Origin: Symbiodinium sp. CCMP2592
Lineage: Eukaryota; Sar; Dinophyceae; Suessiales; Symbiodiniaceae
Direction of reading: 5' to 3'
NCBI GenBank assembly: GCA_905221615.1
Contig: CAJNDT010004001.1
Span: 1,334,474 to 1,398,473 of the forward strand
Length of the DNA: 64,000 bases
Part shown: positions 17,342 through 62,852 of the stretch, one piece after another
Numbering within the stretch: the first letter of the stretch is position 1
Layout of the letters: the number at the start of each line of letters is the position of its first letter
Made by a program: the position numbers and the translations under genes
The notes under the pieces: model-generated
Told to the model about the DNA's origin: nothing
Databases searched by the model: none
What the model saw: the letters and a program-made list of their open reading frames with translations, nothing else

Positions 17342-20300
17342 ATGGATCGTTATGACCCTGATCGAAGCAGCAGCAGAGCAAGCAGTGTCTCCGGAAGGTC
17401 CCAGTCTGCTAGAAGCTGGAATTCCTTGCCACCAGATGAGAGAGAGCTGGCTAAAGAACTGGAATCGCAGCACCTCCGGCTAGAGTCGCGGGGAAGCACC
17501 AGCAACAGTAGCAACGCGTCACAACCTCGAGACAGACTCCAAGCTGCGGAAGCAGCTGAGCGAGACATCGAAGTCCGGCATAGCCAAAGCAAATCGTTGC
17601 AGCAGCCACGGTCCGGCACCGTGTCTCCAGCAGTCGCGCGATCTGCTGCTGACTCCGGAAGGGAGCGACAATCGAATGCACGCAGCGGCTCTGGCAGCAG
17701 TGGCAACAGGCAAGTTCGCACCAGTGAGGCGGGAATCTCCGAAAATTAGGGGTAAGTACCTTTTTGGGGATCCTTATAGTAATTAATAAGGATCCTACTA
17801 CCTAGACCCCCAACTACCCTCTACTATATCTCAAATACCTTCCATTTAGGGCCATAAGGGCTCTATTAGAGGGTACTTTCGGGGTCCTGGTATTTAGGGT
17901 ATCCTAAACTCTAAACGCTGAACGAATAGGGTCCCCTATTTTCGGAAACTCCCAGGTGGCTTTGGGTTCAGACAGCTCAGCCTCCGGTGCGTCGAAGGAA
18001 GCCCAGCAACTAGGTTCTGAGTAGTAGCCTTAAAGGGCTCTGCAAAGGGATCTTCAAAGGGGTCCTTAAAGGGATCTATAGGGGTATCGTGTCTGTTATG
18101 TTCCTGAGTCGTAGCCTTTTGCCCTTTCTCTTTTAGGCTCTCCTTCTTCAAAAACGGGTACCCTTATTTTCAAGGGGTTACTCAGAAACCTAAACACCAT
18201 AAGCCCCCAAAACCTAATCCCTAAACACTAAACCCCTAAGCCCCCAAACCCCGAAGCCCCCAAACCCTAATCCCTAAACCCTAAACTTTAGTAACAGGGC
18301 CCACAAAAAAAGACTAGGCAAGTGATGGAGCTGCAAGCCAAGAATCAAGCGCTGGAAGCAGCCCTTCGGTCAAGAGATGCTCAGGCGACGCAGATACTAG
18401 CCCAATTGGGGCCCCTTCTAGGGTACTTATAAGTTTACTTACTACCTATTTACTAAGTCCCCCGATCCTCCAAGTAAAGACTAGGATGCTAGGATGCCCA
18501 GGCTTAGGGTTTAGGGGTTAGCGGTTAGGGGTTTAGGGGTTTAGGGGTTAGGGGTTTAGGGGTTTAGGGGTTTAGGGGTTTAGGGTTTAGGGGTTTAGTG
18601 GTTTAGGGGTTTAGGGTTTAGGGTTTAGGGTAGGATGCCCCGTAGTACCCTTATTCCCTTTTTGTAGTCCTAGGTTCCTTATAAAGTTACCCAATGATAC
18701 CAAAAATGGAGCCCATTTTATTCCTAGGTTACTGGGCATCCTAGGATAATAGCGGACTGCACGGACATCGACAACAAGAGCCAAGAGCAAATGGCGGCGA
18801 TCCAGTCGGAGCTTGCAGATGCAGTCAAGGCTCGGAAGAAGGCGGAAGACGAGCGTGATGCCGTGGAAGTGAAGGCCGCGGGCGACAAGGCCAAATCCGC
18901 ATCGTCTCTAGCTGCCGCGAACGCAGACCGACTGGAGCTACAGGACCGGGACCGGAAGACTGAGGCAAATGCCGCTGAAGCGCAAACCGAACTCGAGGCA
19001 GCTCGATGGGGCCTAAGCCAGTCAAAGCAGCGGGAACTCGTACAGAGCCAGCATCAGGAAGAAGCCAAGGAGCTAAGCGACTGCCGGATTGAGGAGCTGG
19101 AGGGCTTGTTGAACCTGGGCTTTGGAGTACCATACTTTAATACTTTTTTGGCACCTGTTAACTTAATTAAAGGGAACCAATTATGACAAAAAAATCTATA
19201 CTTTTTTCTCCCTGCTTACTTCAAAGCCCAGGAACAGTGCAAACCGGGAGCTTGCACAGCTCAGACGAGAGTCTCCCAGTCTCGGGAGCACCGCAAGCGC
19301 GCGTGAGACGAGCCTTCAGGATCAGATTGATCTTCTCATCGAGGAGTCGTCGGGGTCATGAAGTTTAGGGTTTAGGCTTAGGGTTTAGTCACCTTTGTGG
19401 GACGCCAGCATCTCATGTATGTTTAATTACTTTTTTATAGGGGCCTTAATAGTTACCTGCAAAATTCTAGGGGGTGCTCCTTATGAAAATTAGAGTATAA
19501 TGGGCCCGAAAACCTTATTCTAATTATTAAGGCCCTGATATTTAGCGGATCCCAGAAGGCACCTTACTTCACCCCACACGACTTGACAAGTCAGGAGAGG
19601 ACGCGAAATCGGAAGGACATGAGCGAAGCTCGCTTGGAACTGCTCGGACTAAAGAAAAAGCAAGCGATGCAAGCCATCGACCAAGCAAAGTCTCCTGCGG
19701 AGTCGCGTCAAGCAAATCAAGCAGCAGGGGGGGGAGGAGGAAGGTCGCGAGGCCGGGGACGAGGGCGTGGAGCAGGAAGGGGCCTCCTAGAGATAATAGA
19801 GGAGGAGGATGAAGAAGGTTCTATTGGACTGCCGGCACGCGCAGCAGAGTCCGTGGCAAGTGAGTGTGACAGCAGTGACTGTGGAGATCTGGACGACCTT
19901 ACGAACCTGGGCCGCGATATCGTATGTGTTCACTCTATAGGGGCCGAAATGATTAACAATACTGTATAGTATAGTATACCCCAAACCCGTATTCTAATAA
20001 TTGCAGAAGTTTCCTCCTCGCTTACTGATGCGAAACGTCTTTTGCCTGAACCCTAAACTCTTAACCCCAAGTTCTAAGCGCTACGCAATAAAATGCCTAT
20101 AGTCTCCATTGTAGGTCCGTTTACTTGGTTTCACCACTGTGGCATTTCGAGCCATAAAGTAGCGCCAAAAAAGGAACTACAATGGAGACTATAGGCTAGG
20201 ACCCAGAGTAGGCCCTTATTCCCTTTTTTAGGGTTTAGGTTCCCTTATAACCCCCTTTAACCCAAAAAGGGCATCCTTTTTATCCCTAGGTTACTCTTGG

Positions 20301-23300
20301 GTCTAGTAGGTAAACTCAGGATTCCCGATCAATCTGCTCAGAACGACCTATTGAAGAAGCTGTTGGCAGAGCTGACCGTTGAGCGGAAGGCAAAGCAAGA
20401 CATGATTCTCGCTGCTTATAGCTTTTTCCTGAAACCCTATAAACTCTAAACCCTAAACTCTAAACCCTAAACTCTAAACCCTAAATCGAAAACTCCCAAC
20501 CCTAATCCCTAGTTCATGGTCGCAAACAGAAGTATGTGTCCCTTGGGCTCCTTAAGCAGCCGAAACTAGGTACTTATGTTTTAGAATTATACGGTTTATT
20601 TCATTGGATCATATTTCATTTGTTACTATGTCAAATGTATAGACTTCAGACCCCAAAGCGTGCGGTACTGTTTGTATGCTTGGAGCCCTAGGGCATCCTA
20701 GAAAAGCTTCATGAAGATCAGAACCCAGGCGTGATAACCACGCTGGTCAGTATGCCGAGCATGCGGAAGAGATCGCTCAATTGCAGAGGCAGCTCGCAGC
20801 GGCAGGAGTCTGGGTTCTTGTTAGGAAAGCTAATTTTAATCAACTAATTTTAATCAACCCTAACCTCTAAACCCTAAACCCTAAACCTACCATATACTAA
20901 GGAAACGCATATTAGGGTCTATGGGCCCTTACTACGATGGCTTAAAGCAAGAGCCTTACACGATAGATCCCTACTATGGCAACTTAGAATGAGATCCTTA
21001 ATGCCATAGATCCCCATTATTGTAATGTAGGAACCTGATTAAGAAATCCTGGGCCTGTAACCCCCAAATAGTAGGATCCATATGAAAAACTCAATAAAGG
21101 TCCAAGCTTTCTCAATCAGGTTCCACATTAACTTCAATAAAGGTCCAAGCTTTCTTAATCAGGTTCCACATTAACTTAAAGTAGGCTCCTTAACAAGAAC
21201 TCAGGAGTCCTTCAGGAAACAACTTCAGCAGAGAATGTCCGCTTGCAGAGCGTTGGGAAACAGGACAAGATCAAGCAGCTGCAGCAAGTGGATGACCTGC
21301 AAGTCAAAGTGAGAGAGCTAGAGGAGACAGTATTCGTGGAAATGAGGATGCAGACGGACAAAGAGCAGCAGCAAGAAATCACGAATGCTGCATTGCAGGA
21401 GAAAGTTCAGCTGCAAGCCGAGTCGCTTCGAATCTCAAACTTGCGCTTGCAAGATGCAGCGTGGCTTCTGAGTAGGTTTTTTGATTAATCAGGTTGGGTT
21501 TAGGGATTTAGGGTTGCAGTGGTTGGCCTGCAGATCCTGACTGAAGGAATAGAGTAATTACACATCATGGTCTTCATGCTCCCAGTAGAGTCAGCAAGGC
21601 ATTGCAGCAGCAGCAGACAGAAGCAGTTCGCCAGCTTCGGGAAATGAACTCATTGCGACTACAGCTCGCAGTGGAACGCAGGCGAAATGCTGGAGATGAG
21701 ACGCACGGCGCCAAAGACGACTCACCAGAGGAATCCCTCCACATGCAGATAAAGGAGTTGGAAGAAGAGCGACTCGCCAGGCCTTTGGGAGATTTTCAGA
21801 TTTCGGATTCTGGGGCTGAAGAGGATCTTAATTACAATTGCGAGCTTCTTTCAGAAGCTCTAGAAGCACCAACCTAGGAGAAACCTTCTGCTCAGCAAGA
21901 TAGAGGTTCAGGAGGTGCAGCACCAGGTTCAGCTGGAAGACGCGTGCCGTGATCATGCTTCCGGATTGCAAGAGCAGCCTCAAACCCCAGAGCCCTGTTT
22001 ACTGTTTAGGGTTTAGGGTTTAGGGGTTTAGGGTTTAGGGTTTAGGGTTTTATGAGATAATCTTATCCCGTATGAACTCAGCAACGAAGGCTTCCAGATT
22101 GCAGGAGCAGCGAGTGAAGTTTGAAGAACAGATCGCAGAGGTCCGCTCCCGATATGAGCAGTTACTCAGGCAGAGGCCTGTTCAGGGCCATTCAGAGGAT
22201 TCTTAGTAGCTGAGTGAGTACACTTTACACTTTTCGGGGCAGTATCATCCCCTTAGAACTGAACGTTTGCGGTTTTTGGGCTATGCAACGCGCAAGCAAG
22301 GATCTGCTTCTGGGCCTTGGCTTGGGGAGCAACTTATCCAGCTTGAGCGCGGAGGCATCATACCAGGCAAAAGATGCTTTTCGTCAAGCAGCTGGCTTTT
22401 GTTAAGGACCTTGCTTGAGTTCAGGGTTTAGGGTTTACCATGACCTGTAGCATTAACGATCTCATTGTAAGTTACCATAGTAATAGTAGGGATCTATAGT
22501 AAGAAGGACCTTAAGTTATCATAGCAGGGATCTGTCATGGATCAGTAGCAATTAGCTTGGCAGGCTTCCTCACATTCTTGGCAAGCTAAATTAAGTTTAA
22601 GAAGAGCCCAGGCAGACGGCGCAAACAGTGCGGTTGGTGTTTCAAGCGAGGCTAGCACCCCAGCGTCGCAGAGCACAGGTGGGTGGTTGTCAAAATTAGG
22701 GTCCCTCTTTGAGTCCACATTATATTACGGCGCCTAATATTTAGGGTACCCAACAAGGGATCCTAATTTTGACAACCACCTAGGTGGCACCGCAGGCACT
22801 TCATTCTCAGATCAGATTCGCAGCATGATTTGGGCAGTGCTGGGCCTCGTTCCGAACGCAGTTGCCGTGCAGTGCGCTTTTGATGACCTGGTCATCCAGA
22901 AGGCCACCGCTAGAGCAGGTGCTATTTTCAGTGGGATGGATTTGATTGGCATGTCTTTCTTTTCCTTGCTCCGAGACAAGAGCAATTCAAGCGTGATCAG
23001 AAGAATGATGCTGGTCAACCAATCCATGGCCGATAGCAGTCGCTGGGTCAGCGTTAAGGTGTTTAGGGTTAAGGCGGCTTGGGATCCTTTTTACTTGTTG
23101 TGGTTTTGTCCTTAACACCCTAAAACGCTTCCTAACCCGCAAACGATTCTCCAAATTTTAAACCTGAACAGGATCCCTAACTAGGTTCCTGAGTAGTGCC
23201 CTTTTCTTCTTTTGCTCTGTTGGGTTCCCTGATGAAAACTAAGTAATAGGAAGAAGGGTACCCTTGTTATTAAGGGGCCGCTCAGGAGCCTACTACAGGG

Positions 23301-25052
23301 GCTTAAACAATTACCTAGACCATTCTGGGGGTTGCTTATTATAGTAGTGGGATAATCAGCCCCAAACCTCCAGGCATTCCCGATTCCCGAACTCGAAAAT
23401 AGATCCTCAAGCTTAATTCCGAGACGGTTTAGGGTGTAGGGTTTAGGGTTTAGGGGCCCTAAACCCGAAGAGGAACGCCAACCCTCCACCCGAAGAAGGA
23501 TCCAAAGACTGTAACCCCTTAAACCAGGAAGCCCTAATCCTTAAATCGTAGCAAGGATCCCCAGGACCTAAATTTCCAAAAGATACAGAGAACCCGAACG
23601 GCATCTCGTAACCATAGCCACTGCAAAAGGGGTCGGACAAGTGTTGAACCCTTGCCGCCCCTTCTCACGATCCTCGAAGCGAACCTCTGCTAGATAGAAC
23701 CCCTTAAGGGTTCCCAGTCGAAGCATCAAGGCCCCTACATGGGTAGTTCTCTAAACTAAGCTGCCTTTGTCACAAAAGTTATACGGCACTGTTTTTAATG
23801 CCGACCCTAGAAGGGACCCAGAACTACCCACATGATACCGAGCCTAAACCCTGGACCCTACATGATACCGACTAGTTTGAGGCCCAGGAGACTTTGTAAG
23901 TAGGATTATGTAGAGTTATATGGACAATAAATGGAGTTACCCCGACTATATCCCTACTTATAATCGACTTCCTAAGTCCCCTAGGCCTCCAAGCAGATAC
24001 CCTAAACCCCAAACCGTATGCCCTTAACCGTAAACCCTAAGACTTGCAGAGGTCAGTCTGAAATCCCATCCTTCGTTGCTGCCACCTTGGGCAGATTCGG
24101 TCTTCAGGGAATAGCTGGGCAAGTGATTGATGGAGCCACTCGGTCTGTAATGTATAGGTCTTAATTATTAGAATCTGGTTTAGGGGGTATATTAATCATG
24201 AAGGCATATTGGAGTCTTTGATTCACGAGTTCCTCAAAGGGTTCGAAAGGAGTCCACTGTGCTTCCAACAAGGGTTTAGAAAGTTTAGGATTTAGGGTTT
24301 CAGGGTTTAGGGTTTGGCGCAAATCCTAAACCCAAAAACCCTAAACCCCGTAAGCCCTAAGCCCTAAAGGGTTTGGGGTTGGGCTAGAAGGGCTTCTTCC
24401 AACAGGAGCGCTATCGGGTTTTTTACATGTTTGGCTTCCCAGTAGTATCCTTTCACCTTCGCTAATGGTTCTATAGGTTTCTGTAGTCTGGTTTTCCGGT
24501 TTCAGGGTACCCCTTGTAGTACCTTCCTTGCCCTTGTTTACTTTACTTGTGCATTTCGGGGCCTCCTGATTCCTGACAAAAGTCGACTATAGTCGGAAAA
24601 GGCATCCGTATGGTTACTAAGCGGGTACTGGAGAACCCAGGTTCTTTCTATGGCTCACCTACCTGCTGACTCTCCAAGTGCTTCCGGGCCTGACGGTCGC
24701 CACATCGTCCTGGTGATCTCTGAGCAGCAGCAGCAGCAGCAGAAGCGCGTGGGGGAAGTCTCTGTGGCTAGCAGCGATATCTGCCCTAGTGATAGTGTCA
24801 GTGTCTGGGCTTTGGAGTACCATACTTTTATGCTTTCTTTGGGACGTGTTACTTAAAGGGAGCCATTATGAAATAAAGGTCTATGCTTTTTTCCAAGGCT
24901 ACTTCAAAAGCCCAGGTGTGGGCAAGCGTCGGCCTCAATTCATGACTTCCGAGATGCAAAGGTCAAAACTCAGGGCATCCTTCTTCGAGGCAGATTCGAG
25001 GATGTCCGCCGTCTCCGGCGGACACTCCTCCCCGCGCAACTCACTGGCTTGA
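17342..25052 (+). CDS. gene A: coiled-coil protein, 18 exons, 962 residues
   Basis: Exons: 17342-17725, 17956-18005, 18318-18392, 18745-19110, 19232-19343, 19595-19902, 20320-20403, 20729-20805, 21205-21455, 21599-21780, 21878-21956, 22090-22197, 22301-22387, 22612-22678, 22784-23050, 24052-24146, 24641-24800, 24916-25052. They sum to 2889 nt, keep phase at all 17 joins and end in TGA. Up to about exon 10 the joins are checked by alignment to gene B. The protein has a Ser/Arg-rich N-terminus (1-128), coiled coil (about 145-345), an Arg-Gly run (about 374-395) followed by an acidic patch, more coiled coil (about 430-690), and a mostly apolar C-terminal region (about 745-865, IWAVLGLVPNAVAV). 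Function unknown; a scaffold or RNA-associated role is a guess. Donors read by eye are GA 8, GC 6, GT 3. Exon 16 onward rests on frame alone and could belong to another gene. Confidence 0.8.
17726..17955 (+). mobile_element. gene A intron 1: F2 introner
   Basis: F2 arms lie at both intron ends (GGGAATCTCCG ... CGGAAACTCCCAG). Flanks are GAGG and GTGG, one mismatch. Frame allows a GA donor at 17726 or a GC donor at 17729. Gene B has no intron here. Confidence 0.75.
18006..18317 (+). mobile_element. gene A intron 2: introner, GC donor
   Basis: Perfect 4-bp duplication GCAA (18006-18009 and 18318-18321). The element starts CTAGGTTCTGAGTAG, with its inverted arm TTACTCAGAAACCTA internal, and the intron ends GACTAG. 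Splicing restores ...GCCCA|GCAAGTG. Telomere-like CCCTAAA sequence fills the right half. Absent from gene B. Confidence 0.85.
18393..18744 (+). mobile_element. gene A intron 3: compound introner (F5 part + TTTAGGG array + F11)
   Basis: Perfect duplication GATA (18393-18396, 18745-18748). Starts CTAGCCCAATTGG and ends GGGCATCCTAG. Contains a truncated F5 (to about 18475), a TTTAGGG array (18501-18632) and an F11 element (18631-18744; F11 starts CTAGGATGCCCAGTAGTA). Gene B reads straight through as ACGCAGACGATAGCG. Confidence 0.9.
19111..19231 (+). mobile_element. gene A intron 4: F12 introner, GA donor
   Basis: The clearest case. Duplication GAAC (19111-19114, 19232-19235) flanks an element with arms CTGGGCTTTGGAGTA ... 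TACTTCAAAGCCCAG. Splicing GA...AG leaves one GAAC, exactly as in uninterrupted gene B (GCTGAACAGTGC). The same family forms intron 17 with a GT donor. Confidence 0.95.
19344..19594 (+). mobile_element. gene A intron 5: introner, GA donor
   Basis: Flanks GAGT and GAGA. Imperfect arms (GTCGTCGGGGTCATGAAG against the reverse of CTTCACCCCACACGAC). Frame is restored as ATC|GAG AGG, matching gene B, which lacks the intron. Confidence 0.75.
19903..20319 (+). mobile_element. gene A intron 6: compound, GA donor, with F6 and F11 copies
   Basis: Begins GAACCTGGGCC, ends AACTCAG, and the next exon starts GATTCCC. The flanking duplication is eroded (GAAC/GATT). Internal F6 (20096-20195) and F11 (20196-20305) sit back to back. 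Gene B has no intron here. Confidence 0.75.
20404..20728 (+). other. gene A intron 7, GA donor
   Basis: GATTCTCGC ... GAACCCAG, with CCCTAAA sequence inside. Frame is kept (GAC AT|G CGT), and gene B is continuous here (CTG CGG GAT). The duplication is not clear. Confidence 0.7.
20806..21204 (+). mobile_element. gene A intron 8: introner, GA donor
   Basis: Perfect duplication GAGT (20806-20809, 21205-21208). Arms CTGGGTTCTTGTTAGG ... CTTAACAAGAACTCAG. The interior holds further repeats: two direct copies of CTTTCTYAATCAGGTTCCAC near 21110 and 21155. Confidence 0.9.
21456..21598 (+). other. gene A intron 9, the one position shared with gene B
   Basis: GC donor after CAAGAT, acceptor CAGCAAG before GCATTGCAG. 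Gene B has an intron at the same codon (61719-62033). The internal sequences do not obviously align, so this is probably an old intron inherited by both paralogues. Confidence 0.75.
21781..21877 (+). other. gene A intron 10, GC donor
   Basis: 97 bp, GCCTTTGGG ... ACCTAG. No clear inverted arms. Frame is kept (GCC AG|G AGA). Confidence 0.65.
21957..22089 (+). other. gene A intron 11 inside a 22-bp duplication
   Basis: Both ends carry GCTTCCRGATTGCARGAGC (21957 onward and 22090 onward), much longer than the usual 4 bp. GC donor, AACGAAG acceptor. The middle holds a TTTAGGG array (21999-22052). A segmental duplication containing splice-like sites is an alternative origin. The repeated peptide ASxLQEQ could instead be two coding heptads. 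Confidence 0.55.
22198..22300 (+). mobile_element. gene A intron 12: F9 introner, GA donor
   Basis: F9 starts CTTAGTAGCTGAGTG; other copies are at 40860-40970 and 60798-60962. Flanks GATT/GATC. The spliced frame continues EDLLLGLGLGSNL. Without splicing the frame meets TAG at once. Confidence 0.8.
22388..22611 (+). mobile_element. gene A intron 13: introner, GC donor
   Basis: Perfect duplication GCAG (22388-22391, 22612-22615). Arms CTGGCTTTTGTTAAGG ... TTAAGAAGAGCCCAG. Confidence 0.88.
22679..22783 (+). mobile_element. gene A intron 14: F1 introner, GT donor
   Basis: The most abundant MITE of the window acting as a complete 105-bp intron. Flanks GTGG (22679-22682, 22784-22787), ends CCACCTAG. 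Spliced frame ...ACA G|GT GGC ACC is open. Confidence 0.88.
23051..24051 (+). other. gene A intron 15 (1 kb), GC donor, mixed repeats
   Basis: Chosen by frame (GTC A|GT CAG TCT). Interior holds CCCTAAA stretches, a CTAGGTTCCTGAGTAG-type element (23171-23300) and an F5-like element (23881-23993). Confidence 0.55.
24147..24640 (+). other. gene A intron 16, GT donor
   Basis: GTAATGTATAGG ... GAGAACCCAG, chosen by frame. Telomere-like sequence around 24290-24380. Confidence 0.5.
24801..24915 (+). mobile_element. gene A intron 17: F12 introner, GT donor
   Basis: Perfect duplication GTGT (24801-24804, 24916-24919) around CTGGGCTTTGGAGTACCATA ... CTTCAAAAGCCCAG. Same family as intron 4, but a GT donor because the target began GT. 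Confidence 0.93.
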
Positions 25053-25173
25053 GAGGATCAGTAATTATTCTTCTTGGGTTTTGCTTGCGGATTTAGGAAT
25101 CCGAGGTTTCACAGATGTTGTCAGTTTCCCGCCGTTCCACGTCGTACAAGTTGTGATCCAAAGAGCTGTCAAG

Positions 25174-25281
25174 CCCAGAGAGCCCAATACCCGTTAATTA
25201 AGGAATATAGCTTAAATCATAATATGAAGCCCTATATAATTTAAGCCATATTCCTTAATTAAGGGGTATTGGGCTCTCTGG
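25174..25281. mobile_element. 108-bp near-perfect hairpin element
   Basis: Arms of about 44 bp starting CCCAGAGAGCCCAATACCC match their reverse complement with about two mismatches. A degenerate relative lies at about 38128-38222. Confidence 0.85.
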
Positions 25282-25550
25282 GAGGCTTCATGGTCTCACT
25301 CGTGCGGCTCGCAGAATACGTTTCACGTTGACTCGCCGCGAGGGGCCAATACTATGCCATCCGGACAGTCAAAGGTCAGAGCTTGGCAGCTGTCAACGGG
25401 GTCCAAGGGTTTTTAGGGCCTACGTTTGGGGGTATAGGGGCGACATCCTGGCAGAAGTACGGGTATAGGAGGGAGGGCGGTCAGGGTCAGGGTAGTGGCA
25501 GATATGAAGCTTTGGGGAAACTGACTATTGGAACCTAAATTGTAATTACT

Positions 25551-25652
25551 ACGGTTGATGATATAAATGCTGCATGGCCGATAATAAGGAATATACCATA
25601 ATTCCCATAGTTTAGGGTCATTATGGTAATGCAGGATTTGTATCATCAACCG
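25551..25652. mobile_element. F3 MITE
   Basis: F3 is defined by arms ACGGTTGATGATATAA ... TTATATCATCAACCGT with ATCCTGCAT just inside. Unlike most other families it does not end in AG. Confidence 0.85.
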
Positions 25653-25713
25653 AAGGTACTATTCCCCAGCCCAGGGTTTCGAATTGCGGCTATCATCATG
25701 GCTATCATCGAAT

Positions 25714-25856
25714 ACTTGGACGGTCGAGGGACTTAGTAACTGCTTATTTTAGGGACTAATAAGTACCATCACCCCAATTAGGGCCCCTTTTCGGGTACTT
25801 ATAAGCCTACTTACTACCTACTTACTAAGTCCCCCGACCCTCCAAGTAATGTATCC
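25714..25856. mobile_element. F5 MITE, expanded
   Basis: F5 is defined by arms like GATCATGGGACTTAGTAA ... TTACTAAGTCCC, ending CCAAG. Here the arms read CTTGGACGGTCGAGGGACTT and the right end TCCAAG. Confidence 0.65.
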
Positions 25857-26293
25857 CAAAACCCTGTTGGACATATAAAGGCCCTGTTTTCAAGCTTCTC
25901 AATTCCTGCAGCTTAACAACCGGCGATTCCAAGAACCATCTCCGCAATTTGGCTTCGGGGGAGGTAAGGAGTGAGAAAGAGGTTCAGTTGGGGATTCAGG
26001 GTCTCTTAGTTTTTAGGCTTGAACATGACTTCCCACACGAGCGAAAAATGAGCAGTGATATGCTATCATAGTCCATAGTCCCCAGAAAGTTACGCTGCAG
26101 TATCCTCCTCAAGCCGTGTTTCAGTTATCAATACCCATACCTTATGACCCTTACAAGCCCTTATGACGCCCGTCCATTCGCTATAGTTTCCTTAGGAATC
26201 ATTTCTGTTTGATGTTCTGTTTTTGTTCTTGTAAAACCCAAGAGAACATTAATCCTTGTCTGTATTCTGGTTCTAAGGGGGTGTATAGGACAG

Positions 26294-26394
26294 AGTTGCT
26301 GGTAAGGACTTTAACTTCTTGGGTTTCTATATGGACTCTAATTAATAAGGAGGCTAAAAGTTTAACTTTTAGGAGGGGTCCAGAAGCCTGCCAA
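26294..26394. mobile_element. F8 MITE, left end eroded
   Basis: F8 is defined by CTTGGCATTCTTCTGGTT at the left and AGAAGTCAGCCAAG at the right. This copy keeps the core and a right end CAGAAGCCTGCCAAG. Confidence 0.6.
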
Positions 26395-28125: not shown

Positions 28126-28226
28126 GGGTGGTTGTCAAAATGATGGTGCCTTTTTGGATCCTTAATATCATACGGCACCAAATGTTTAAGGTACCCAAAA
28201 AGGGACTTTAATTTTGACAACCACCC
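28126..28226. mobile_element. F1 MITE
   Basis: Complete arms GGGTGGTTGTCAAAAT ... ATTTTGACAACCACCC. Confidence 0.85.
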
Positions 28227-28846: not shown

Positions 28847-28912
<66 letters not shown>

Positions 28913-51665: not shown

Positions 51666-51764
<99 letters not shown>

Positions 51765-52991: not shown

Positions 52992-53512
52992 GCTGCTGGG
53001 CCTTGAACCCCCAACCCTGTTTCGAAGCAACTTGCATCTCTGACGTATGCTCCGCCCGTTGAAGAACCTTGCTGTTTAGTTTGGGTTCGTATAAGTAGGA
53101 AAAGCTTTAGCGGCTTTAGTGTCCAGGGTTCACATGTGTCGTCATCTACCGACCTGTCCATCTCCGCTATGCTTAGGTTCATTTGTTCGAGTTAATTACT
53201 CTCAGCGGTGAGAACTTCCCGTTCTATACACCTGTCTAAACATATGGTTGGGACCAATCTGTTTCTGGGCTGTTGCTTGATTCTGTGCATCTATGTAAAC
53301 AGCTGTAAGCATGTATCTGTACTATTGTACCTGAAATATACTGCTTTGACACATGTCGTATCCAACCCGCAAGGTAGGTTCCGCCGAGTTCAGGGAATGT
53401 GGCGTGCTAAGACCCTCAAACTGCCCCGTCTTGTAACCCAAACTATCAACACCCCTAAACCCTTAAACCCTATTGTAAACCCCCAAACCCCTAAACCCCT
53501 AAGCCTCAAAAA

Positions 53513-53613
53513 CTTACATCCCCATTACCCAACCTTTAAACTTTTGGGGTTCTTTTAGTTCTGTAGGAATCAAAGTTTAACCTTTCAATTCTGTGGCTTA
53601 TTGGGGTAGTAAG
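53513..53613. mobile_element. F4 MITE
   Basis: CTTACATCCCCATTACCC ... TTGGGGTAGTAAG. Confidence 0.8.
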
Positions 53614-53639
53614 ATAAACCCCCATGCCCCGAACCCATG

Positions 53640-56540
53640 GACACTCCAGGAGTAAGCAGCCGAGAGAGGCTCCTGAGCAAGGTTTGGGTCAACACCAAAA
53701 TAGCCAAGCTATTCAGGGACTCATACGGGTGGTTGTCAAAATTATGGTGACCCTTTTGGGGTGCTCGAAATATTAGGTGCCGTACTACATTAGGGATCCC
53801 AAAAAGGGACCCTAATTTTGACAACCGCCCATATAAGGAAGTCCTAAAGATGCAGGTTGTATCGGCTTAAGCTTAGCTCCCCAATACCCAACCTTTAAGC
53901 TTGTTGGGTTAACTTGTAGTATAGTAGGAATTGGAAAGTTTAACCTTTAATTTCTGGGGCTTATTATTGGGGTAGTAAGTATAAGTGCTTAAGGTAGGGT
54001 TTCGGGGTTCAGGCGACAGCTTGTCTGGATGTACTTTAGGAACCAGGCGTAACATGGCACGCTGGATTGTGTGAACTAAGGTTTTTACTGTAATACTGCT
54101 GATGGGCAAAATCCTGCATTACCCATTAGAAGGAATATACCATAGTTCCCATAGTTTAGAGTCCTTAGGGTCATGCAGGATTTTGTCCATCAGCAGTATG
54201 AGACAGAACCTTCGATTTATAATTACAGGCACTCAGTTCAAGCTTGAATATGGGGGTTTCCGAAAATTAGGGGTACCTCATTTTTGGGGGGCCTTATAGT
54301 AATAACGATCCTACTATTTAGGGTGCTAGATGAGGGTCCCCTATTTTCGGAAACTTCCATATTAGCTCATCAACCCAGGGGCTCCGATCGTACAAACCGT
54401 ACCTACTTCTAAACCCTAAACCTTGGGTACCGCCCCCACTCAGTAATAGTTGAATCATATTCATAATATAGATATGTTAGGACCTTATTAGTAGCCCTAT
54501 TATAGACTCTCACTGTAAGGGGGCAGTACCTAACCTAAACCCTATGTTTACCTACTTTGGCCTACTGGGGAGAGCCAGGGCAAGAGTCTACGGTTTAAAA
54601 GTCCTAAATGCTAAACACCTAGCCGAATTTTAGCGGATGTCGGGGTGTTGGAATGAAGATTATGAATCCCATTCTGATCTTAGGCTTATTCCTTTCTGTT
54701 ATGGAATGAAAATTATGAACCCCCGTATAATTTACGGTAAATTCCTTAGTTCAGGGGATCCTTAAAGTGAGGTGCTGAACCAAAGCGAGGAGCCTATTTC
54801 TTTCTGGCTGAAGGCATCTGGACTGCGGTTCCGGTTGTTTTCATATGGGAGTTTCCGAAAATAGGGGACCCTGATATAGTACCCTAAATGGAAGGATCCT
54901 TTTTGTAAGGACCCCCAAATAAGGTACCCCTGATTTTCGGAAACTCCCATATTGGTCCGCGTTTTTAATTGAAATCAGGGACCAGGGAGAAGACTGCGTT
55001 CCATACTCTTAGATCCCCTCTACCCAACCTTTCAACTTTTTGGGTTCTTGTAGTTTTGTAGGAATCGGAAAGTTTAACCTTTTATTTCTGTGGCTTCTTG
55101 GGGTAGTAAGTTGGTCCACGTTTTAATTGAAATCAGGGACCAGGGAGTAGACTGCTTTCCATACTGTTGGCCGACAGCCGCGAAGCCGATCAGAGCCTGG
55201 GATACGGTTGATGATATAAATTAGAAGCTGCCCCCACCCTGTAATAGTGGTATAACAGGAATATAATAGGGCCCTAATCTAATCCTATATAACCCTTATG
55301 GTCACTATTACAGGGTGGGGGCCCCTTCTAAGATATAAATCCTAGGGTTCCCTTTACAGGGATCTATAAGGATATCTTTGAGGGGTTCCTTTATAGGGGG
55401 TTTAGGGTTTAGGATATAAGTCCTGCATTACCCTAAGGACCTTGAACTATGGGAATTATGGTATATTTCTTATTCTGGGTAGTGCAGGATTTATATCATC
55501 AACCGTACTTCCTCAACAACGAAACCATTGTAGATACCGATACAAACCTTGCTTCCAAAATCTTTGACGACAGCCGTTGCGGCCGTTGCGCGGCAAGACG
55601 AAGGGACTAAACGTGGTCTTGGGGTTCAGGGTTGGTGGCTTAGCACTTCCGGTAGGAAGGTTTACAACTATAAAGCTTCTGGGTTTCATGGAAAAAGGTT
55701 CGGTTCATGGTCCAGTTGTTCCAGCTGACATCAAGAGTCTGGGTTCAAAACTGGGGTTTAGGGTGCTAGAGGCTGCTATAGAGGTCTCATTGCGGATGAA
55801 GGCTTCGCCTTGGAGGTGATCCAGGGACCGGGTGGTGGATGTGTGTCTGGGGGCCGGAAGTTGTAGATCTCTGAAAGCCTGAATAACTTGCCAACGTTAT
55901 TCCTTGGGGTTGCTCATTTTAGTTCTTCTCAGAGGGTCCTTGAGAATTTTATGACTGCTGTTTTTGTGGGGATATGTTAACGCAGGAAAAACGATGCTGG
56001 TGACCACCATCAGCCATGTGACGGCCCTGAGCACTTACTCATGCCTTAAACCCTTTAACTTAACACCAAAGTCTAATCCTTGAAGCCTTGACGGAAAAAC
56101 CCTAAACCCTACGACTTGAAACTTCTGGAAATTGCAAAACATTAAACCCCACGCACCTAACAGTACGGCTTGAAGCTTCTTCTTCAGGTTAAGGAGGGCA
56201 TTGAGCAGCGCGCAACGGCACTTCTGGCGCCGGCGTGCCCCGAACGATGTCTGTGATCTTGATCTCCTGGCCTAAACCTCGATTTTTATGGTTTAGAGTT
56301 CAGGGTACTGCCATAGACCCTAAGTTATTACCAGGCGTATAACGTTTACGGAGCCATGGTCGGCTGTTGTGCGTGCAGCCCCATGTGGAACCTACGTGCT
56401 CACTCCCGACAGAAAGATCTAACAATCCGTCTGCCGGATCAGTGCGGTGATTCCTGTTCTAGCACTTGTTGTAGTCGTCCGCGCAATCACCACCATTGTC
56501 AGAGCCACAGCCGTGTCTGCCACCATCTTCTTGATCTTAG
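53640..56540 (+). CDS. fragmentary unidentified gene in small exons
   Basis: Coding-like pieces joined by plausible splices: about 53640-53717 (LLSKVWVNTKIAKLFR), 53838-53855 (EVLKMQ), 54229-54245, 54366 to about 54410 (LINPGAPIVQTV), about 54770-54835 (RGAYFFLAEGIWTAVP), 55111-55200 (IRDQGVDCFPYCWPTAAKP), 55534 to about 55612 (LTTAVAAVARQDEGTK), 55986 to about 56041 (TTISHVTALSTY), 56188-56252 (EGIEQRATALLAPACPERC), 56447 to about 56536 (apolar: LALVVVVRAITTIVRA). They are not all proven to be one gene, and no family was recognised. The last piece could be a membrane helix. They lie between the GH30 gene and gene B and could in part be the C-terminus of the GH30 protein. Confidence 0.4.
53718..53837 (+). 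mobile_element. F1 element forming a GA-AG intron
   Basis: GACTCATACGGGTGG ... CGCCCATATAAG; F1 proper is 53727-53830. Splicing joins KLFR|EVLKMQ. The spacer between intron end and element end is longer than in gene A. Confidence 0.6.
53872..53979. mobile_element. F4 MITE
   Basis: CTTAGCTCCCCAATACCC ... TTATTGGGGTAGTAAG. Confidence 0.85.
54094..54197. mobile_element. F3 variant with changed arms
   Basis: ACTGCTGATGGGCAAAATCC ... GGATTTTGTCCATCAGCAGT. The interior matches F3 in inverted orientation (TTCCCATAGTTTAGAGTCC), but both arms have changed in step and remain complementary. Confidence 0.8.
54246..54365 (+). mobile_element. F2 element forming a GA-AG intron
   Basis: GAATATGGGGGTTTCC ... 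CTTCCATATTAG. The flanking reading joins QFKL|LINPGAP. F2 proper is 54252-54358. Confidence 0.6.
54424..54532. mobile_element. F15-related element
   Basis: GGTACCGCCCCCACTCAGTA ... CACTGTAAGGGGGCAGTACC. Confidence 0.6.
54847..54948. mobile_element. F2 MITE
   Basis: GGGAGTTTCCGAAAATAG ... TTTTCGGAAACTCCC, with ATAT on both sides. Confidence 0.85.
54953..55162. repeat. 51-bp direct duplication flanking an F4 element
   Basis: The sequence beginning TTGGTCCRCGTTTT and ending CCATACT occurs at about 54954-55007 and 55111-55163, with F4 (55008-55110) exactly between. The right copy stays open in frame; the left copy has an extra T and a stop. Confidence 0.85.
55008..55110. mobile_element. F4 MITE
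   Basis: CTTAGATCCCCTCTACCC ... CTTGGGGTAGTAAG, ending in AG directly before the open right-hand duplicate. Confidence 0.85.
55204..55506. mobile_element. F3 MITE with nested F15
   Basis: The outer F3 (ACGGTTGATGATATAAA ... TTTATATCATCAACCGT) is split by F15 (55223-55336, arms AAGCTGCCCCCACCCTG ... CAGGGTGGGGGCCCCTT) plus TTTAGGG-like sequence. GATATAAA flanks the insert. Confidence 0.8.
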
Positions 56541-56921
56541 GTTGCAGTCATCATCATCATCATCATCATCGTCATGATCATGTGATCTGCCCTGAGGGTC
56601 CATGTATCCAAATAATGAAGAATAATAATTATAATGTATACTTTGGCCGTACCTATACAGAAACTGCATTGGGGTCAAAGTATCTACTGTTTGTGTTTTT
56701 GTGGACATGGACGCTAAGGCTGTGCTTTCTCAGTGGCGACACATGTGCTTGTACTGCGGCTTCAGAAGGATGCCCTCCGCTCACTGCCCCCCCTTGCAAG
56801 CAAAGCAGGGTAAGTCCGAAGAGAAGTGGGTTTAGGGTTGATGGAAGTTTAGGTTTTAGGCTTTAGGGGTTTAGGGTTGGGGGAAGTCTCGGGTCGATAG
56901 CTGTCCCCGGCAAGCGCGACC
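56541..56921. other. short intergenic region before gene B
   Basis: (CAT)n tract at about 56549-56572, then mixed sequence and a TTTAGGG-like stretch. The last 20-30 bp before ATG 56922 resemble the same place in gene A (GCTGTCSC..GCGACCATGGATCG), so the duplication includes the 5' leader. Confidence 0.5.
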
Positions 56922-59900
56922 ATGGATCGCGCAGACCTTGATCGCAGCAGCAGCCGGGCCAGCAGCGTGTCTGGAAGGTCTGTCCATTCTGCCCGGAGCT
57001 GGAACTCCCTATCACCGGAAGAGAGGGAGTTGGCCAGTGGCCTGCAGTCAAGGAAGGTCCTCCTCGAGTCGCATGCGAACTCTTACGCAGGAAGTTCCAA
57101 CGACAGTAGCAGCGGCAAGTCGCAGCCCCGTGACAGGCTGCAAGATGCGGAGGCAGCAGAGAGACTTGGCATTCTTCTGGTTGGCTCTGAGGACTTTTTA
57201 ACTTTTTGGGGTTCTACATGGACAATAATAAGGAGGCTAAAAGTTTAAGTTTTCAGACGAGGTCCAGAAGTCAGCCAAGGAGTTAGGGACCCAAAAAGCA
57301 CATAAGCATAAGCATATTATGGGCATATCCCTACCTTATTGGGCTTCATTATAAGGGGGGGTTTATATGGGATATCCCCATCCTTATTTTTGCTTCATTG
57401 GGGTCCTAAGGAGAGATATCGCATCTCGCCAGAGCCGGGCCTCCTCACAGGATGGCCCCCATTCCGGCATCAAGTCCCCAGCAGCCGCACGATCTACAGC
57501 CGACTCCGGAAGGTCCTGGCCTGGGATGATGAGGGAGATCCCTTAAAGGGTACCCCTTCGGAACCCTACTTCTGGCTCTCTTAAAAGGGACCTTATTCAG
57601 AGGGTCTATATCCCCGAGGTTCCCCCTAATCCTAACTCCCAGGTCCGGAAGAGAGAGACGGAGTGGCTCTCCCGGTAGCAGTGGCAACAGACAAGCTCCG
57701 GAGATGCTAATCCGAAGCCTCACGGATAGCTCAAGTTCTTTCCATTCGGACGAATCTTCGTCATCGTTGGGTAACCTGTTACATTTTCTTGGGTATTTAA
57801 ACCCAATTAGGAACGAAAATGTGGATTTTTGTCCTATCCCAACCATGCACCAGGAATCACACCGGGTCAAGGAGCTGCAAGCCAAGAATCAAGCGCTTGA
57901 GGCAGCCTTGCGGTCACGGGATGCACAGGCAACGCAGACGATAGCGGACTGCACGGACATCGACAACCGGAATCAAGATCCTTAGATAGTGAACGGGGGA
58001 ACTTTAAACTTTTTGGCATTATATGTTAGCTCTATCTTAGAAAGTTTGAACGTTTTCGGGCTCGGTTGTTGAAGAAGAGAGGAGCGCATGGTGGAGATCG
58101 AGTCGCAACTTGCAGATGCAGTCAAGGCCAGGAAGAAGGCGGAAGACGAGCGTGATGCCGTGGAAGTGAAGGCTGCCGGCGACAAGGCCAAATCTGCGTC
58201 GTCTCTAGCAGCCGCGAACGCAGACCGGCTGGAGCTCAAAGACAGGGACCGGAACAGTGAGGCCAAGACTGCTGAGGCACTCGTCGAACTCGAGACAGCT
58301 CGCTTTGATCTCAAGCAGTCTGAGCAGCGGGAACTCGAACAGACCCAGCATCAGGAAAAGGCCAAGGAGCTCAGCGACTATCGGATTGAGGAGTTAGAGA
58401 GTTTGCTGAACAGTGCAAACAGCCAGCTCGCGCTGATAAGACGTGACACCTCAGGCCTTGGAAGCACAGCGACCGATCGGGAGACGAGCCTGCAGAATCA
58501 GATTGACGAGCTCGTGGAGGAGAGGACGCAGAATCGGAAAGACATGAGCGAAGCTCGCTTGGAACTTCTCGGGCTAAAGAGAAAACAAGCGATGCAAGCC
58601 ATCGACCAAGCAAAGTCTCCTTCTGAGTCGCGTCAGGCAAGTCAGGGAGCAGCAGGTGCGGGAGGAAGGTCGCGAGGCCGGGGGCGAGGGCGTGGAGCAG
58701 GCAGGGGAATGCTGGAGATTATCGAGGAGGAGGACGACGAAGAAGGCTCTGTTGGGCTGCCAGCACGTGCAGCAGAGTCCTTGGCCAGCGAGTGTAGCAG
58801 CGACTGCGGAGATCTGGACAACCTCACGAATCCGGATCGATCTGCACAGAACGAGCCTAGGTGGCACTTTGGGAAGCTTGCTAACTTCCTGTTATGGTTC
58901 CTAGAGAGGTACCTATTCAGAAGCATCTTTTCAGGGCCTCAGAACTACAACGAAGGACCTCTTGAACAAGCTCCTGTCCGAATTGTCCGTTGAGCGGAAG
59001 GCGAAGCAGGATCTGCGGGATGACCATGCTGGTCAGAATGCAGAGCAAAAGGAAGAGACTGGGTGCACTTGAACAGCTTTATACCTTGATCGCTTCCACT
59101 AGGCTATAGAGGTACCTATTTATGACGACTCTTGGGGGTCCCCAAAAAACCCTAAAGCCAAAACTCCAAAAGGCCTCAGAGGCCCTAAACTCTAATCCTT
59201 AAATCCTAAATCCTAAACCCCAAAACCTTAAACCCTAAACCCTAAACCCTCTCGAAACCCTAAACCCCTACTCCCCAAAGACATAACCCAGGAGATAGCT
59301 CAGCTGCAGAGGCAGCTCGCCGAAGCGGGAGTTCTGCAGCTTGGTTCTTGTTCATGAGCTTAGATCCGCAATACCGGGATCCTTTAAGGGCTCCGTTAAG
59401 GATCCCTGGGTTTAGGCTTTTTGGGTTTAGGGTTTGGGGTCCCTTGAACTTAGATCCCCAATACCCAAGCTTTAAACTCTTTGGGGTTCTTGTAGTTTAG
59501 TAGGAATCGGAAAGTTTAACCTTTCAATTCAGTGGCTTACTGGGGGTGTAAGTGAATTTAGGGTTTAGGTTTAAGTTACCATCCACAATAGGGATCTATA
59601 GCAACTAATATGGTTTCCTTATTAGGGTAACATAAAGTAACTCCCTGTAAACCCTAGATCCCTAAGCCCCTCAACCCCTAAACCCTACACCCTCAATTCC
59701 TTAGCCGCCTCGAGCCTTTGGTGCCTTTGGATGCAGCTTGCCTCTTAGTTCTGTTTCATTGCAATGCTTAACCCCTAAAGCCTACCTTAACCTTGAATAA
59801 CCTACCTTTGTTGGGTTCCTTGTTATGAATTCCTTATATACGCCCTTGAAAAAGTAGGTTATTCCGGGTTGAGGTAAACCCTAAATCCTTAAACCCTACA

Positions 59901-62566
59901 CTCTCAATCCCTCAACCCCTAAAGCCTAAACCCTAAACTAAACCCCTACCTGCCTTGTGCCAGTGTGTGTGAGCCGAAACCCTAAATCCCTAAACGAGAA
60001 CCCAGGCAGGCAGCGTCTTCAGCGGAGAATATCCGCTTGCGGGACCTCGGCAATCAGGACAGGACTTGCGACCAGGGGCCTTAATAATTACTTGTAGTCT
60101 CCATTGTAGTTCCTTTTTTGGGTTTAACCAAATATATAACTCGGATCCTATAAGGTAACCCCCAAAAGGAACTACAATGGAGACTACAGGTAGAGTAGGG
60201 TTCCTTTGAAGAGGTCTATAAGGGCTACTATACGATGAGGACTTAGTATAGGGGTTTTAATCAATCATCATCAATATTTTTCTTGGGGTTCCTTATCATT
60301 TATGGTCATACCACAAAGGGGCCCAAAAACCTGTTCGAATTCATGCGCCCTCTGACTTACCTGGGAGTTTCCGAAAGTTAGGGGTACCTTGGGGTTCTTG
60401 AAAAGGGTTATTATAAAATATAAGGGTTCCTTCAAAGGGCTCTATAAGGGTTTAGAGTTTCAGCAGATTAGGGATGCCTCATTTTTAGGGTTATAGGATC
60501 CTACTATTTAGGGCAGTACATTAGGGTCCTCTATTTTCGGAAACTCACACCTGGACCCTTAAGAATCTACCTTTCCAGGGCTCCCCGTTATGATGTCGCT
60601 GCAAAATGTAGGTTAGTCAAGGTCCATGTAAGGTTGAGGGTCGATTAATCGGGTTTATGGTCTGCTGTTGAGGAGTAATCGCCGGCACTCAACCCAAGCC
60701 CATGTTGAAAAGGGTTAGGGTTGGGAAGCAGGACAGGATCAAGAAGCTGCATCAGGTGGATGGCTTGCAGGTCAAAGTGAGAGAGCTGGAGGAGACACTT
60801 AGTAGATGAGTTAGTATGCTTGACCATTTTCTGTAGAACACTAAAAATTACCCGATTACACCCTACATAAACCTGAAAGTTTTGCTTTTTGATTAACATC
60901 AATACCCCCTACAGTTTTCTGACAGTTTAAGCTTGTATGGGCTCATGAACTCGGCGACTAAGGACGTTATTCGTTGAGATGAAGCAGCAGACCGACAAAG
61001 AGGAGCGCCAGGAAGTGACGAACGTCGAGTTGCAGGAGGGGGCCTGGAAAGGTGGGATGAAGTTGATATAGGGGCCAACTCTGATGCCCAGTAGTACCCT
61101 TATTACCTTTTTGTAGTCCTAGGTTCCTTATAAAGTTACCCAATACCTTAGATCCCCAATACCCAGCCTTTAAACTTTTTGGGTTCTTGTGGTTTAGTAG
61201 GAATCGGAAAGTTTAACCTTTTATTTCTGTGGCTTATTGGGGTAGTAAGTATAGGGGCCTTGAGAATGAGACTAGGGTTTCGGGACCCATTATACTGTAA
61301 TTATAATAAGGAATCTCCAAAATAGTGTTGGTAATCGTTTCGGCCCGTATAGTATCTAGGATCAAGGACCCCTTATAATATAAAAGGACTCTTATTTGGG
61401 ACTACTCCTATCCCCTAAACTCCAGACCATGCCTCTATGCCCAGTAGTACCCCTTATTCCCTTTTGTAGTCCTAGGTTCCCCAATACCAAAAAGGAGCCC
61501 TGTTTATTCCTAGGTTCCGGGCATCCTAGTCCAATATACCCCAAGTACCCACTACTAAGGGCCATAAGGAGTCCATTAGAGGGCCCTTGGGGGTTCCGGG
61601 TTAACCCTAAACGCCCAGACTCCAGACCCTACGTTCATCCCAGCTCGGGAGCCCTTTCCAGGAGAAAGTTCAGCTGCAGGCCGAGTCGCTGCGGATCTCC
61701 AACCTGCGCTTGCAAGATGCAACTTGGGGTGCTGAGTAAGGGTCTAGGGCTTAGGGTTTGGGGTTTAGGGTTTGGGGTTTAGGGCTTTGTGTTTAGGGTT
61801 TAGGGTCTGCCTGATCCCCAAGAGGGAGCTCATACTAAGGAGCCTAAAAAGGTAGGGTTTATACGGTTAAGCGAGTGTTCACTGCTTGTTTGTAGGGTCC
61901 ACGAAGATTCTTGTTTTCATATATAGGTTCGAAGAAGAACCCACAAAAAGTATGTCATGGTAGCTTCACGTAGTAAATTTAGCCTTGTCAAAGTCCAGCC
62001 CTTTGCGCCAGCCCCGTTAAGACACCCATCCAGGCATTGCAGCAGCGTCACACAGAGGCAATACGCCAGTTTCGAGGTGGCACTTGAATAAACTTGTTTG
62101 TTCCCGTTATATGGCAGAGATTAGCGGACCTTAACTTTTTTGGGCGTCCTTATAAACTTCTTAGGGTTATTATAGCAGGGTCGCGCTTTTTCCGAACGCC
62201 CGTATGTATGGTTCTACTGAAATACTCTGCATTACCCTCAACACTGAAACTGACAAGCCCTGAGTCCTAAGCCTGAAAATGCCACCCAGGTTACAGGAAG
62301 TCAATTCCTTAAAGCTTCAGCTGGCGATGGAATGCAAGCGAAGCGGTCGCAGTGTCTTAGCTGTGTCTGGTGTTTCATTCGTACCTGTCCATCTATCCTT
62401 CTGTGCGTCCATCTGCTATCGATGTATCTGTCCATGTATCTACTTACCTATCTACCTACCTGTCTGTGCATAACGAATTGTACGTATATACATATATATA
62501 TATATGCCGATAATTGCAAAAGATGTATGTATGTATATATGTATGTATATATATATATATATATAT

Positions 62567-62613
<47 letters not shown>

Positions 62614-62852
62614 CGCACACACAGACATATACACACGCATATACATACACATGTAACATGTACATATGCATGTACATAACAATATACATTTATTACATTT
62701 ACATATATGTGTGGTGGGGCCGCTTACCCCGTTGTGATTCTCAACGGGCGTAAGTTACTTGAACAAGGTTCAGATGAGGCATGGACTGCTGACGTAGAAG
62801 ATGGCGACCCAGAGGTGGCTCTGTGCCAGCGTGTGAAGGAGCTCGGTGCTCT
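56922..62852 (+). CDS. gene B: paralogue of gene A, 3' end not found
   Basis: Exons: 56922-57160, 57411-57512, 57643-57751, 57854-57976, 58082-58852, 58956-59054, 59292-59338, 60006-60062, 60737-60793, 60963-61035, 61662-61718, 62034-62075, 62297 to about 62345, and a probable exon at about 62770-62850 (DEAWTADVEDGDPE against DETHGAKDDSPE in A). Phases are consistent through the first 12 exons (1776 nt). Layout matches A: Ser/Arg N-terminus, coiled coil, Arg-Gly run plus acidic patch (encoded about 58660-58740). The apolar C-terminal part present in A was not found before the window end, so B may be truncated or continue through unseen exons. Donors: mostly GA; the join at 62076 needs a GG donor and is suspect. 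Confidence 0.78.
57161..57410 (+). mobile_element. gene B intron 1: stacked F8 + F7 introners, GA donor
   Basis: GAGA (57161-57164) and GAGAG (57411) flank the pair. F8 is 57165-57280; F7 is 57284-57410 with its own GGAG-like flanks. Splicing gives GCA GCA GA|G AGA GAT, matching gene A, which has no intron here. Confidence 0.9.
57513..57642 (+). mobile_element. gene B intron 2, GT donor
   Basis: Perfect duplication GTCC (57513-57516, 57643-57646). Weak arms (CTGGGATGATG / CCTAACTCCCAG). Absent from gene A. Confidence 0.82.
57752..57853 (+). mobile_element. gene B intron 3, GA donor, frame-neutral
   Basis: Duplication GAATC (57752, 57854). Imperfect arms CTTCGTCATCGTTGGG / CCCAACCATGCACCAG. 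102 bp with no in-frame stop, so retention would only insert 34 residues. Confidence 0.75.
57977..58081 (+). other. gene B intron 4, GA donor
   Basis: GATCCTTAG ... AGAGAG, flanks GATC/GAGC. Splicing gives CAA|GAG CGC ATG, as in uninterrupted gene A (CAA GAG CAA ATG). Confidence 0.78.
58853..58955 (+). other. gene B intron 5, GA donor
   Basis: GAGCCTAGG ... CAACGAAG, flanks GAGC/GACC. Restores AAC|GAC CTC TTG, matching gene A. Confidence 0.75.
59055..59291 (+). mobile_element. gene B intron 6, GA donor
   Basis: Perfect duplication GAGA (59055-59058, 59292-59295). Starts CTGGGTGCACTTG, ends CATAACCCAG; CCCTAAA runs inside. Confidence 0.85.
59339..60005 (+). other. gene B intron 7, GC donor, several nested elements
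   Basis: Lies about 8 codon-nucleotides downstream of gene A intron 8 and starts with similar sequence (TTGGTTCTTGTTC against TGGGTTCTTGTTA). Contains F4 (59449-59551) and a hairpin (59781-59877, ACCTTAACCTTGAATAACC ... GGTTATTCCGGGTTGAGGT). Confidence 0.75.
60063..60736 (+). other. gene B intron 8 within a CAGGACAGGA duplication
   Basis: CAGGACAGGA occurs at both junctions (60055-60064 and 60729-60738). GA donor, ACAG acceptor. Contains F6 (60091-60190) and an F2 copy with an internal insertion (60363-60547). Confidence 0.75.
60794..60962 (+). mobile_element. gene B intron 9: F9 introner, GA donor
   Basis: Flanks GACA/GACG; CTTAGTAGATGAGTTAG ... CTCGGCGACTAAG. Splicing restores GAG GA|G ACG TTA TTC GTT GAG, matching gene A. 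Confidence 0.85.
61036..61661 (+). mobile_element. gene B intron 10: compound introner, GA donor
   Basis: Flanks GAGG/GAGA; outer arms GGCCTGGAAAGG ... CCCTTTCCAG. Inside are an F11 copy cut by F4 (61083-61147 and 61147-61249) and a second F11 (61432-61529). Restores CAG|GAG AAA GTT. Confidence 0.85.
61719..62033 (+). other. gene B intron 11, position shared with gene A intron 9
   Basis: GC donor after CAAGAT, CCATCCAG acceptor before GCATTGCAG; TTTAGGG run at 61745-61805. Confidence 0.78.
62346..62769. repeat. (TA)n and (GA)n microsatellites in gene B
   Basis: ATCTACCTACC-type sequence, TA tract at about 62545-62568, pure GA tract at 62570-62609, ACACACATATAC sequence. Probably intronic, as coding homology to gene A resumes at about 62770. 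Confidence 0.85.

Follow-up and report, generated by a model that had tools for sequence, protein, structure and literature searches.

How did two paralogous genes come to be interrupted by introns at almost entirely different places? The question is posed by genes A and B, which lie in a window of 64,000 nt from the dinoflagellate Symbiodinium sp. CCMP2592 (contig CAJNDT010004001.1, positions 1,334,474-1,398,473; the source assembly comprises 1.098 Gb in 5,383 contigs). A and B are full-length paralogues, and a third paralogue, C, with 961 amino acids and 2 introns, is found on contig C102 (5363-8502 in the numbering of the extracted C102 stretch). The sequences make it very likely that the introns by which A and B differ arose by repeated insertion of small transposons, with partly co-opted splice signals, since the A/B split.

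The gene models were built from an alignment of A and B DNA with long free gaps, followed by protein-to-genome alignment using all three paralogues. They contain 41 introns (17 in A, 22 in B, and 2 in C) at 38 positions. A and B together account for 36 of these positions, 3 of them common to both (A 21456/B 61719, A 21957/B 65631, and A 23039/B 67779) and 33 unshared. The coding sequence of C is uninterrupted at all 36, and neither of its own intron positions is common with A or B. The alternation described in the initial annotation, in which an intron in one paralogue faces an unbroken exon in the other and its excision restores the alignment of codons, was recovered by both the DNA and the protein-to-genome alignments. 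Likewise, the one clearly shared site reported there for roughly the first 600 residues agrees with our models up to alignment column 592 (9 introns in A, 11 in B, only A 21456/B 61719 in common), but over the full length two further shared sites appear (3/36). In our models A runs from 17342 to 25052, and B from 56922 past the window end to about 69069; the end of the interval given in that annotation (62852) falls within a 2.7-kb intron of B.

With splice-site scoring switched off, alignment again gave 17 introns in A and 22 in B, in a test that is not fully independent because the queries were proteins from the same gene models. A G.-AG pair is found among the equivalent placements of 22 of these 39 introns (the modelled ones), and 17 have none; 10 of the 17 are the modelled intron moved by 1-14 nt equally at both ends and 7 differ otherwise, two of these 7 (22200-22239 and 22270-22562) being plainly unlike the model. 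The modelled edges of intron A 18001-18312 are uncertain, and those of A 24135-24640, B 62346-62767, and C 6563-6703 are less secure than the rest. The modelled donors are GA in 20, GC in 12, and GT in 9 of the 41 introns, and all acceptors are AG, a uniformity that is partly built in, as the gene models favour G[ACT]...AG.

Identical residues number 708/947 between the A and B proteins, 580/931 between A and C, and 604/933 between B and C. The nonsynonymous and synonymous divergences (dN/dS) estimated with YN00 are 0.172/0.722 for A-B, 0.286/1.887 for A-C, and 0.265/1.451 for B-C. The A protein looks to the eye like a coiled-coil, and a Pfam search with it returned no match at E 0.01. Protein searches of the genome with the middle and the C-terminal parts found no loci beyond A, B, and C, except for two weak matches (E 6.7e-4) that correspond to an RG-rich low-complexity stretch. 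Being predicted from DNA, the intron segments could be imagined as DNA disrupting pseudogenes instead. This is very improbable, since the spliced frames of A, B, and C are all open, full-length, and conserved, with dN/dS well below 1.

The edges of the introns carry the clearest trace of their origin. For 34 unshared introns (all 35 but A 18001, whose boundaries are uncertain), we compared the start of the intron with the start of the exon that follows it. Matches at positions 1 to 8 numbered 34, 30, 25, 22, 8, 7, 11, and 10, against 34.0, 14.2, 10.1, 8.7, 8.2, 7.1, 8.5, and 7.5 in mismatched intron/exon pairs. An exact 4-base duplication is present in 16 of the 34 (1.46 expected; at most 7 in 20,000 shuffles), or in 16/35 against 1.44 expected when A 18001 is included. 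The six introns at shared sites have a weak excess (positions 3-4 match in 7/12, a value reached in 429 of 20,000 shuffles). Over all 41 introns, 18 have exact 4-base duplications and 33 match at least three of the four bases (the latter by hand count).

Inside the duplication, the introns tend to begin and end alike. At the left element end, position 1 is C in 33 of the 41 introns, position 2 is T in 29, and positions 4 and 5 are G in 27 and 28, respectively; the right end mirrors this pattern. The consensus tendency is CTKGGY, and likewise for the complemented right end; there the CT follows of necessity from the requirement of the model for AG, whereas the CT on the left is not forced. Given a duplicated target that begins with G and an element end of the CTKGGY type, the 5' splice site would usually come from the target and the AG from the element. 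When 149.5 kb were searched for paired CTNRG termini, 28 pairs emerged (both strands being counted), and the flanks matched in 3 or 4 bases in 10 of them, compared to 0 for control flanks; at this strictness, the search recovers few of the modelled introns.

Relatives of some of these introns are dispersed in the genome. Genome-wide copy searches covered three elements (families 1 to 3), with candidate totals that are first-look counts and 40 candidates scored per family. Family 1, a 101-bp miniature inverted-repeat transposable element (MITE) in intron A 22679, gave 2,535 candidates, family 2 gave 2,145, and family 3 gave 1,902, and 40/40 scored candidates matched in each. In 30 family 1 loci (including the copy in gene A), the duplication is exact in 21 and matches in at least three of the four bases in 26. 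The left duplicate reads A..T in 27/30 (hand count), mostly ANNT. Among these loci, the copy in gene A is alone in having AGGT as its target, which gives AG|GT...AG|GT. Family 2 elements occur in introns B 57161, B 67448, and C 8290; of the copies fetched, 16/20 have exact duplications (4 of the 16 beginning with G), as do 13/16 in a further set. For family 3, 25/39 fetched copies have exact duplications, 4 of them G-first. Family 3 elements occur in A 19111 and A 24801. Similar sequence acting as an intron at unrelated positions is therefore a property of family 2 (in B and C) and family 3 (in A), and the fact that family 3 gives both GA-AG and GT-AG introns indicates that the donor dinucleotide can depend on the landing site.

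Put together, these features suggest a simple route to a new intron. Non-autonomous MITEs, moved by a transposase whose source we infer, would have inserted repeatedly and separately into A and B after their split, each insertion duplicating 4 bp of the target. In most cases the left duplicate would give the intron its start of GA, GC, or GT, and the right terminus of the element, ending in AG, would provide the acceptor. Excision of the left duplicate plus the element from the pre-mRNA would then restore the original codon. Family 1 would contribute neither splice site, the target AGGT being enough for AG|GT...AG|GT. Insertion itself is not limited to targets with G; insertions in coding sequence would persist where they can be spliced, a selective filter. 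In favour of this, 55 family 2 and family 3 copies taken regardless of target, though chosen as those most similar to the query and not at random, have G-first targets in 7/38 exact duplications (11/54 with the first family 2 set), compared to 16/16 in the exact unshared introns of A, B, and C (Fisher 1.2e-8 for 7/38). The introns A 20806-21204 and B 59336-60005 are instructive in this respect. Their sites lie 7 coding nt apart, the B intron has its own exact duplication (GCAG), and its terminus CTTGGTTCTTGTTC is nearly the same as the CTGGGTTCTTGTTA terminus of the A intron. We read them as independent, near-coincident insertions, since an exact 4-bp duplication accompanies each of the two.

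Several observations weigh against this origin by transposition or narrow its reach. The splicing of the A, B, and C introns is presumed from the restored frames. A repeat match along the length of the element is found in six introns only (A 19111, A 22679, A 24801, B 57161, C 8290, and part of B 67448); 18/41 introns have no repeat match when compared with some 130 kb of local sequence, and the remaining matches are mostly partial or internal. As so few introns are matched to families, the element origin of most of them is deduced from the duplication and the termini, and the introns without known relatives are to be taken as probable elements. Eight of the 41 introns match fewer than three of the four duplication bases. 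Inverted repeats past the terminal bases are modest, with a mean of 8.2/16 against 7.2 in mismatched pairs, and only 7/41 introns pass the 95% level of such pairs, although the mean is above all 20,000 permutations (maximum 8.07). The G-first start of all 16 exact unshared introns is partly built into the models, although the element termini nonetheless fix the register. The filter itself finds mixed backing in the frames across the joined flanks of fetched family 2 and family 3 copies, open in 3/4 G-first copies versus 4/26 others in family 3 (p 0.031), 1/3 versus 4/11 in family 2 (p 0.77), and 4/7 versus 8/37 when pooled (p 0.075). The GC content of the flanks is 0.544 in G-first copies of the two families and 0.481 in the others (p 0.002). 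Finally, a constant insertion rate does not account for C, which has had as much time as A and B but carries only 2 introns: at their rate, by our reckoning, it would be expected to gain tens.

The intron poverty of C would reflect either an origin as a retrocopy, intronless at the outset, or a shielded locus. In the first case, C would descend from the ancestral spliced mRNA and would be uninformative on the ancestral state, and the three introns shared by A and B may predate the A-C split. We regard this as a real possibility, if somewhat short of an even chance. It fits the 2 introns of C against 17 in A and 22 in B, and there is a weak hint in the end of the spliced leader, matched over 12 nt with 2 mismatches at a point 264 nt before the start of C, a match that 4/300 shuffles equalled and that was one of six tests. 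The 21-base leader has 217 forward and 212 reverse exact matches genome-wide (429 in total; 0 for the reversed control), which marks the genome as that of a dinoflagellate. Upstream of C, its full-length match is no better than chance (157/300 shuffles), and within about 700 nt from the C stop the longest run of A is 6. As C may be a retrocopy, it is chiefly the duplications and the difference between A and B that speak for gain; a retrocopy origin of C would affect neither the evidence from the duplications nor the 33 introns that A and B do not share.

The same poverty of C could be turned into an argument for differential loss, with an ancestor that had the union of the introns and with A and B precisely losing different subsets, for instance through gene conversion by spliced cDNA. 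Recycling of cDNA occurs in dinoflagellate genomes, and C, nearly intron-free, resembles a retrocopy. Yet loss alone would require at least 71 events on the tree ((A,B),C) to account for the 38 positions (hand count), and it leaves the 4-bp duplications and the presence of the same elements elsewhere in the genome unexplained, so that we consider it highly unlikely. The initial annotation had preferred gain to loss, and this preference is supported by the duplications, the common termini, the dispersed copies found for some introns, and the intronless C at the 36 A/B sites. It had also named, as evidence to the contrary, outgroup orthologues carrying the union of the A and B introns; none was found in the protein searches of this genome, which yielded A, B, and C.

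Its description of the gains as caught in the act, on the other hand, goes too far. The duplications show some wear, with bases 3 and 4 matching in 47/68 cases, which corresponds in a Jukes-Cantor style estimate to about 0.4 substitutions per site between duplicates, comparable to half the A-B synonymous distance per lineage. Given this wear, we take the average age of the gains to be similar to that of the A/B duplication, and they look spread across the time since then rather than fresh. The 33 unshared A/B introns over two lineages amount to about 0.013-0.016 gains for each coding base and each synonymous substitution per site.

Transposition need not account for every intron. At the shared site A 21957/B 65631, the A intron (21957-22089) opens with a sequence almost identical to the exon that follows it (20/22 nt, by eye), and a unit similar to the next exon is present several times inside the B intron (65631-66023). 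Such a structure suggests birth by tandem duplication of exon sequence, and we think it rather probable that some introns arose in this manner. It was noticed at this shared site only, however, and in the unshared set the repeats stop after 4 bases.

Intron birth of this type is already published for dinoflagellates, under the name of introners, and A and B are a very clear case of it. Introners of Symbiodinium microadriaticum have a 4-bp duplication, terminal inverted repeats, their own 3' splice site, and a co-opted 5' site (Gozashti et al. 2022, PMC9860276). The introns of A, B, and C, as modelled, are alike in all four features; the difference is that here a single trio of paralogues is followed, with counts per position. 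Family 1 would co-opt both splice sites, as the legend of Fig. 2E in the same paper gives for Florenciella. Introner activity in dinoflagellates has been described from an analysis of five genomes, with 12,253 introns in Polarella glacialis (Roy et al. 2023, as cited in the review PMC11453091), likewise pointing to recent creation of introns by introner families. The introner elements of Amoebophrya also have inverted repeats and direct repeats of 3-5 nt at the intron ends (Farhat et al. 2021, PMC7789003). Splice sites are highly variable in Amoebophrya A25 and A120, whereas here all are G[A/C/T]...AG, which our model favours: sites of the Amoebophrya type, other than GT/GC/GA-AG, were found in 0/41 modelled introns, and without splice scoring 17/39 had no G.-AG placement. 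Surveys of Suessiales and Prorocentrum score introner elements by the presence, close to the ends of introns, of inverted repeats and direct repeats, and report them in about 3-11.5% of Suessiales genes (PMC11114475, PMC10522408, PMC10666404); the 33/41 introns with at least three of four duplication bases in our single gene family follow a looser criterion. Donors in Suessiales and Prorocentrum are GT in 24-37%, GC in 44-58%, and GA in 17-24%, with AGG acceptors in 80-97% (PMC10666404), so that GA donors are commoner here (20/41) than in that table.

Table 1. Paralogous genes and selected introns in the window (window numbering).
Feature	Position	Strand	Splice sites	Description
Paralogue A	17342..25052	+		951 amino acids, 17 introns; protein-to-genome models
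Paralogue B, 5' part	56922..64000, on to ~69069	+		whole gene 959 amino acids, 22 introns; protein-to-genome models
A intron	19111..19231	+	GA-AG	duplication GAAC; element CTGGGCTTTGGAGTA...TACTTCAAAGCCCAG; family 3
A intron	20806..21204	+	GA-AG	duplication GAGT(C); termini CTGGGTTCTTGTTA / TAACAAGAACTCAG
A intron	21456..21598	+		site common with B 61719-62033 (GC-AG); alignment column 592
A intron	21957..22089	+		site common with B 65631-66023
A intron	22679..22783	+	GT-AG	101-bp MITE, family 1; duplication AGGT supplying both predicted splice sites
A intron	23039..24051	+		site common with B 67779-68229 (GT-AG); alignment column 861
A intron	24801..24915	+	GT-AG	duplication GTGT; family 3; 81% identical to element 19115-19231
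B intron	57161..57410	+		family 2 element (57165-57279) directly followed by another element (57280-57410); outer duplication GAGA
B intron	60058..60731	+	GA-AG	direct repeat GACAGGA; other repeats within
B intron	61036..61661	+	GA-AG	duplication GAGG/GAGA; contains other repeats, including the 104-bp repeat
B intron	62839..64000, continuing to 65537	+		duplication GAGC(T); holds the end of the interval in the initial annotation

Other repeats are found in the same DNA. A 104-bp repeat with inverted ends (CTTAGATCCCCAATA...) is present at window positions 17076, 38725, 39655, 50798, 53513, 55008, 59450, and 61147, with 6 copies outside genes A and B and 2 within B introns. Degenerate TTTAGGG/CCCTAAA runs are scattered across introns and intergenic DNA of the window, and an open frame of 917 amino acids at 5334-8087 has a reverse transcriptase domain (PF00078, E 3.4e-13). 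Elsewhere in the assembly, contig C5051 (2.96 Mb) has a single-frame, bacterial-looking PGI and three single-frame Cpn60/TCP1 matches, and is perhaps a bacterial contaminant. Sugar-transporter matches with identical scores were seen on contigs C567, C2480, and C5242, and one element has the same displayed flanks on contigs C5207 and C3784; these may be recent duplications or duplicated contigs.

How far the origin proposed for A and B extends to the rest of the genome is a more speculative matter. There might be no dedicated intron-making elements at all, any MITE ending in AG becoming an intron where its 4-bp target starts with GA, GC, or GT; most introns would then be transposon-born, and the AG|G rule would be the worn imprint of the duplication. 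AG|G acceptors make up 96.1-97.1% in Suessiales (PMC10666404). The argument that AG|G is a duplication does not appear in the titles and abstract openings of the papers compared, a set without the texts of Roy et al. 2023 or of a study from 2015 of splice sites in dinoflagellate introns. We hold this extension to be doubtful. Amphidinium gibbosum has 93.2% AGG acceptors although its donors are GT in 74.9% and GA in 0.1% (PMC10666404), which counts against it. So does a chaperonin gene on contig C4898, whose 3 introns have no signature, the favoured placements matching 2/4 duplication bases each; these placements were judged by their fit to the human protein, and alternatives with 3 or 4 matches fitted that protein less well.

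The origin of introns is an old question, and cases in which the mechanism of birth is still readable are rare. The trio of A, B, and C gives about 33 intron births since one duplication of known divergence, and hence a rate open to comparison across genes and species. Moreover, one family has given rise to a GA-AG intron (A 19111) and a GT-AG intron (A 24801), so that which donor dinucleotide an intron has can be a matter of where the element happened to land.

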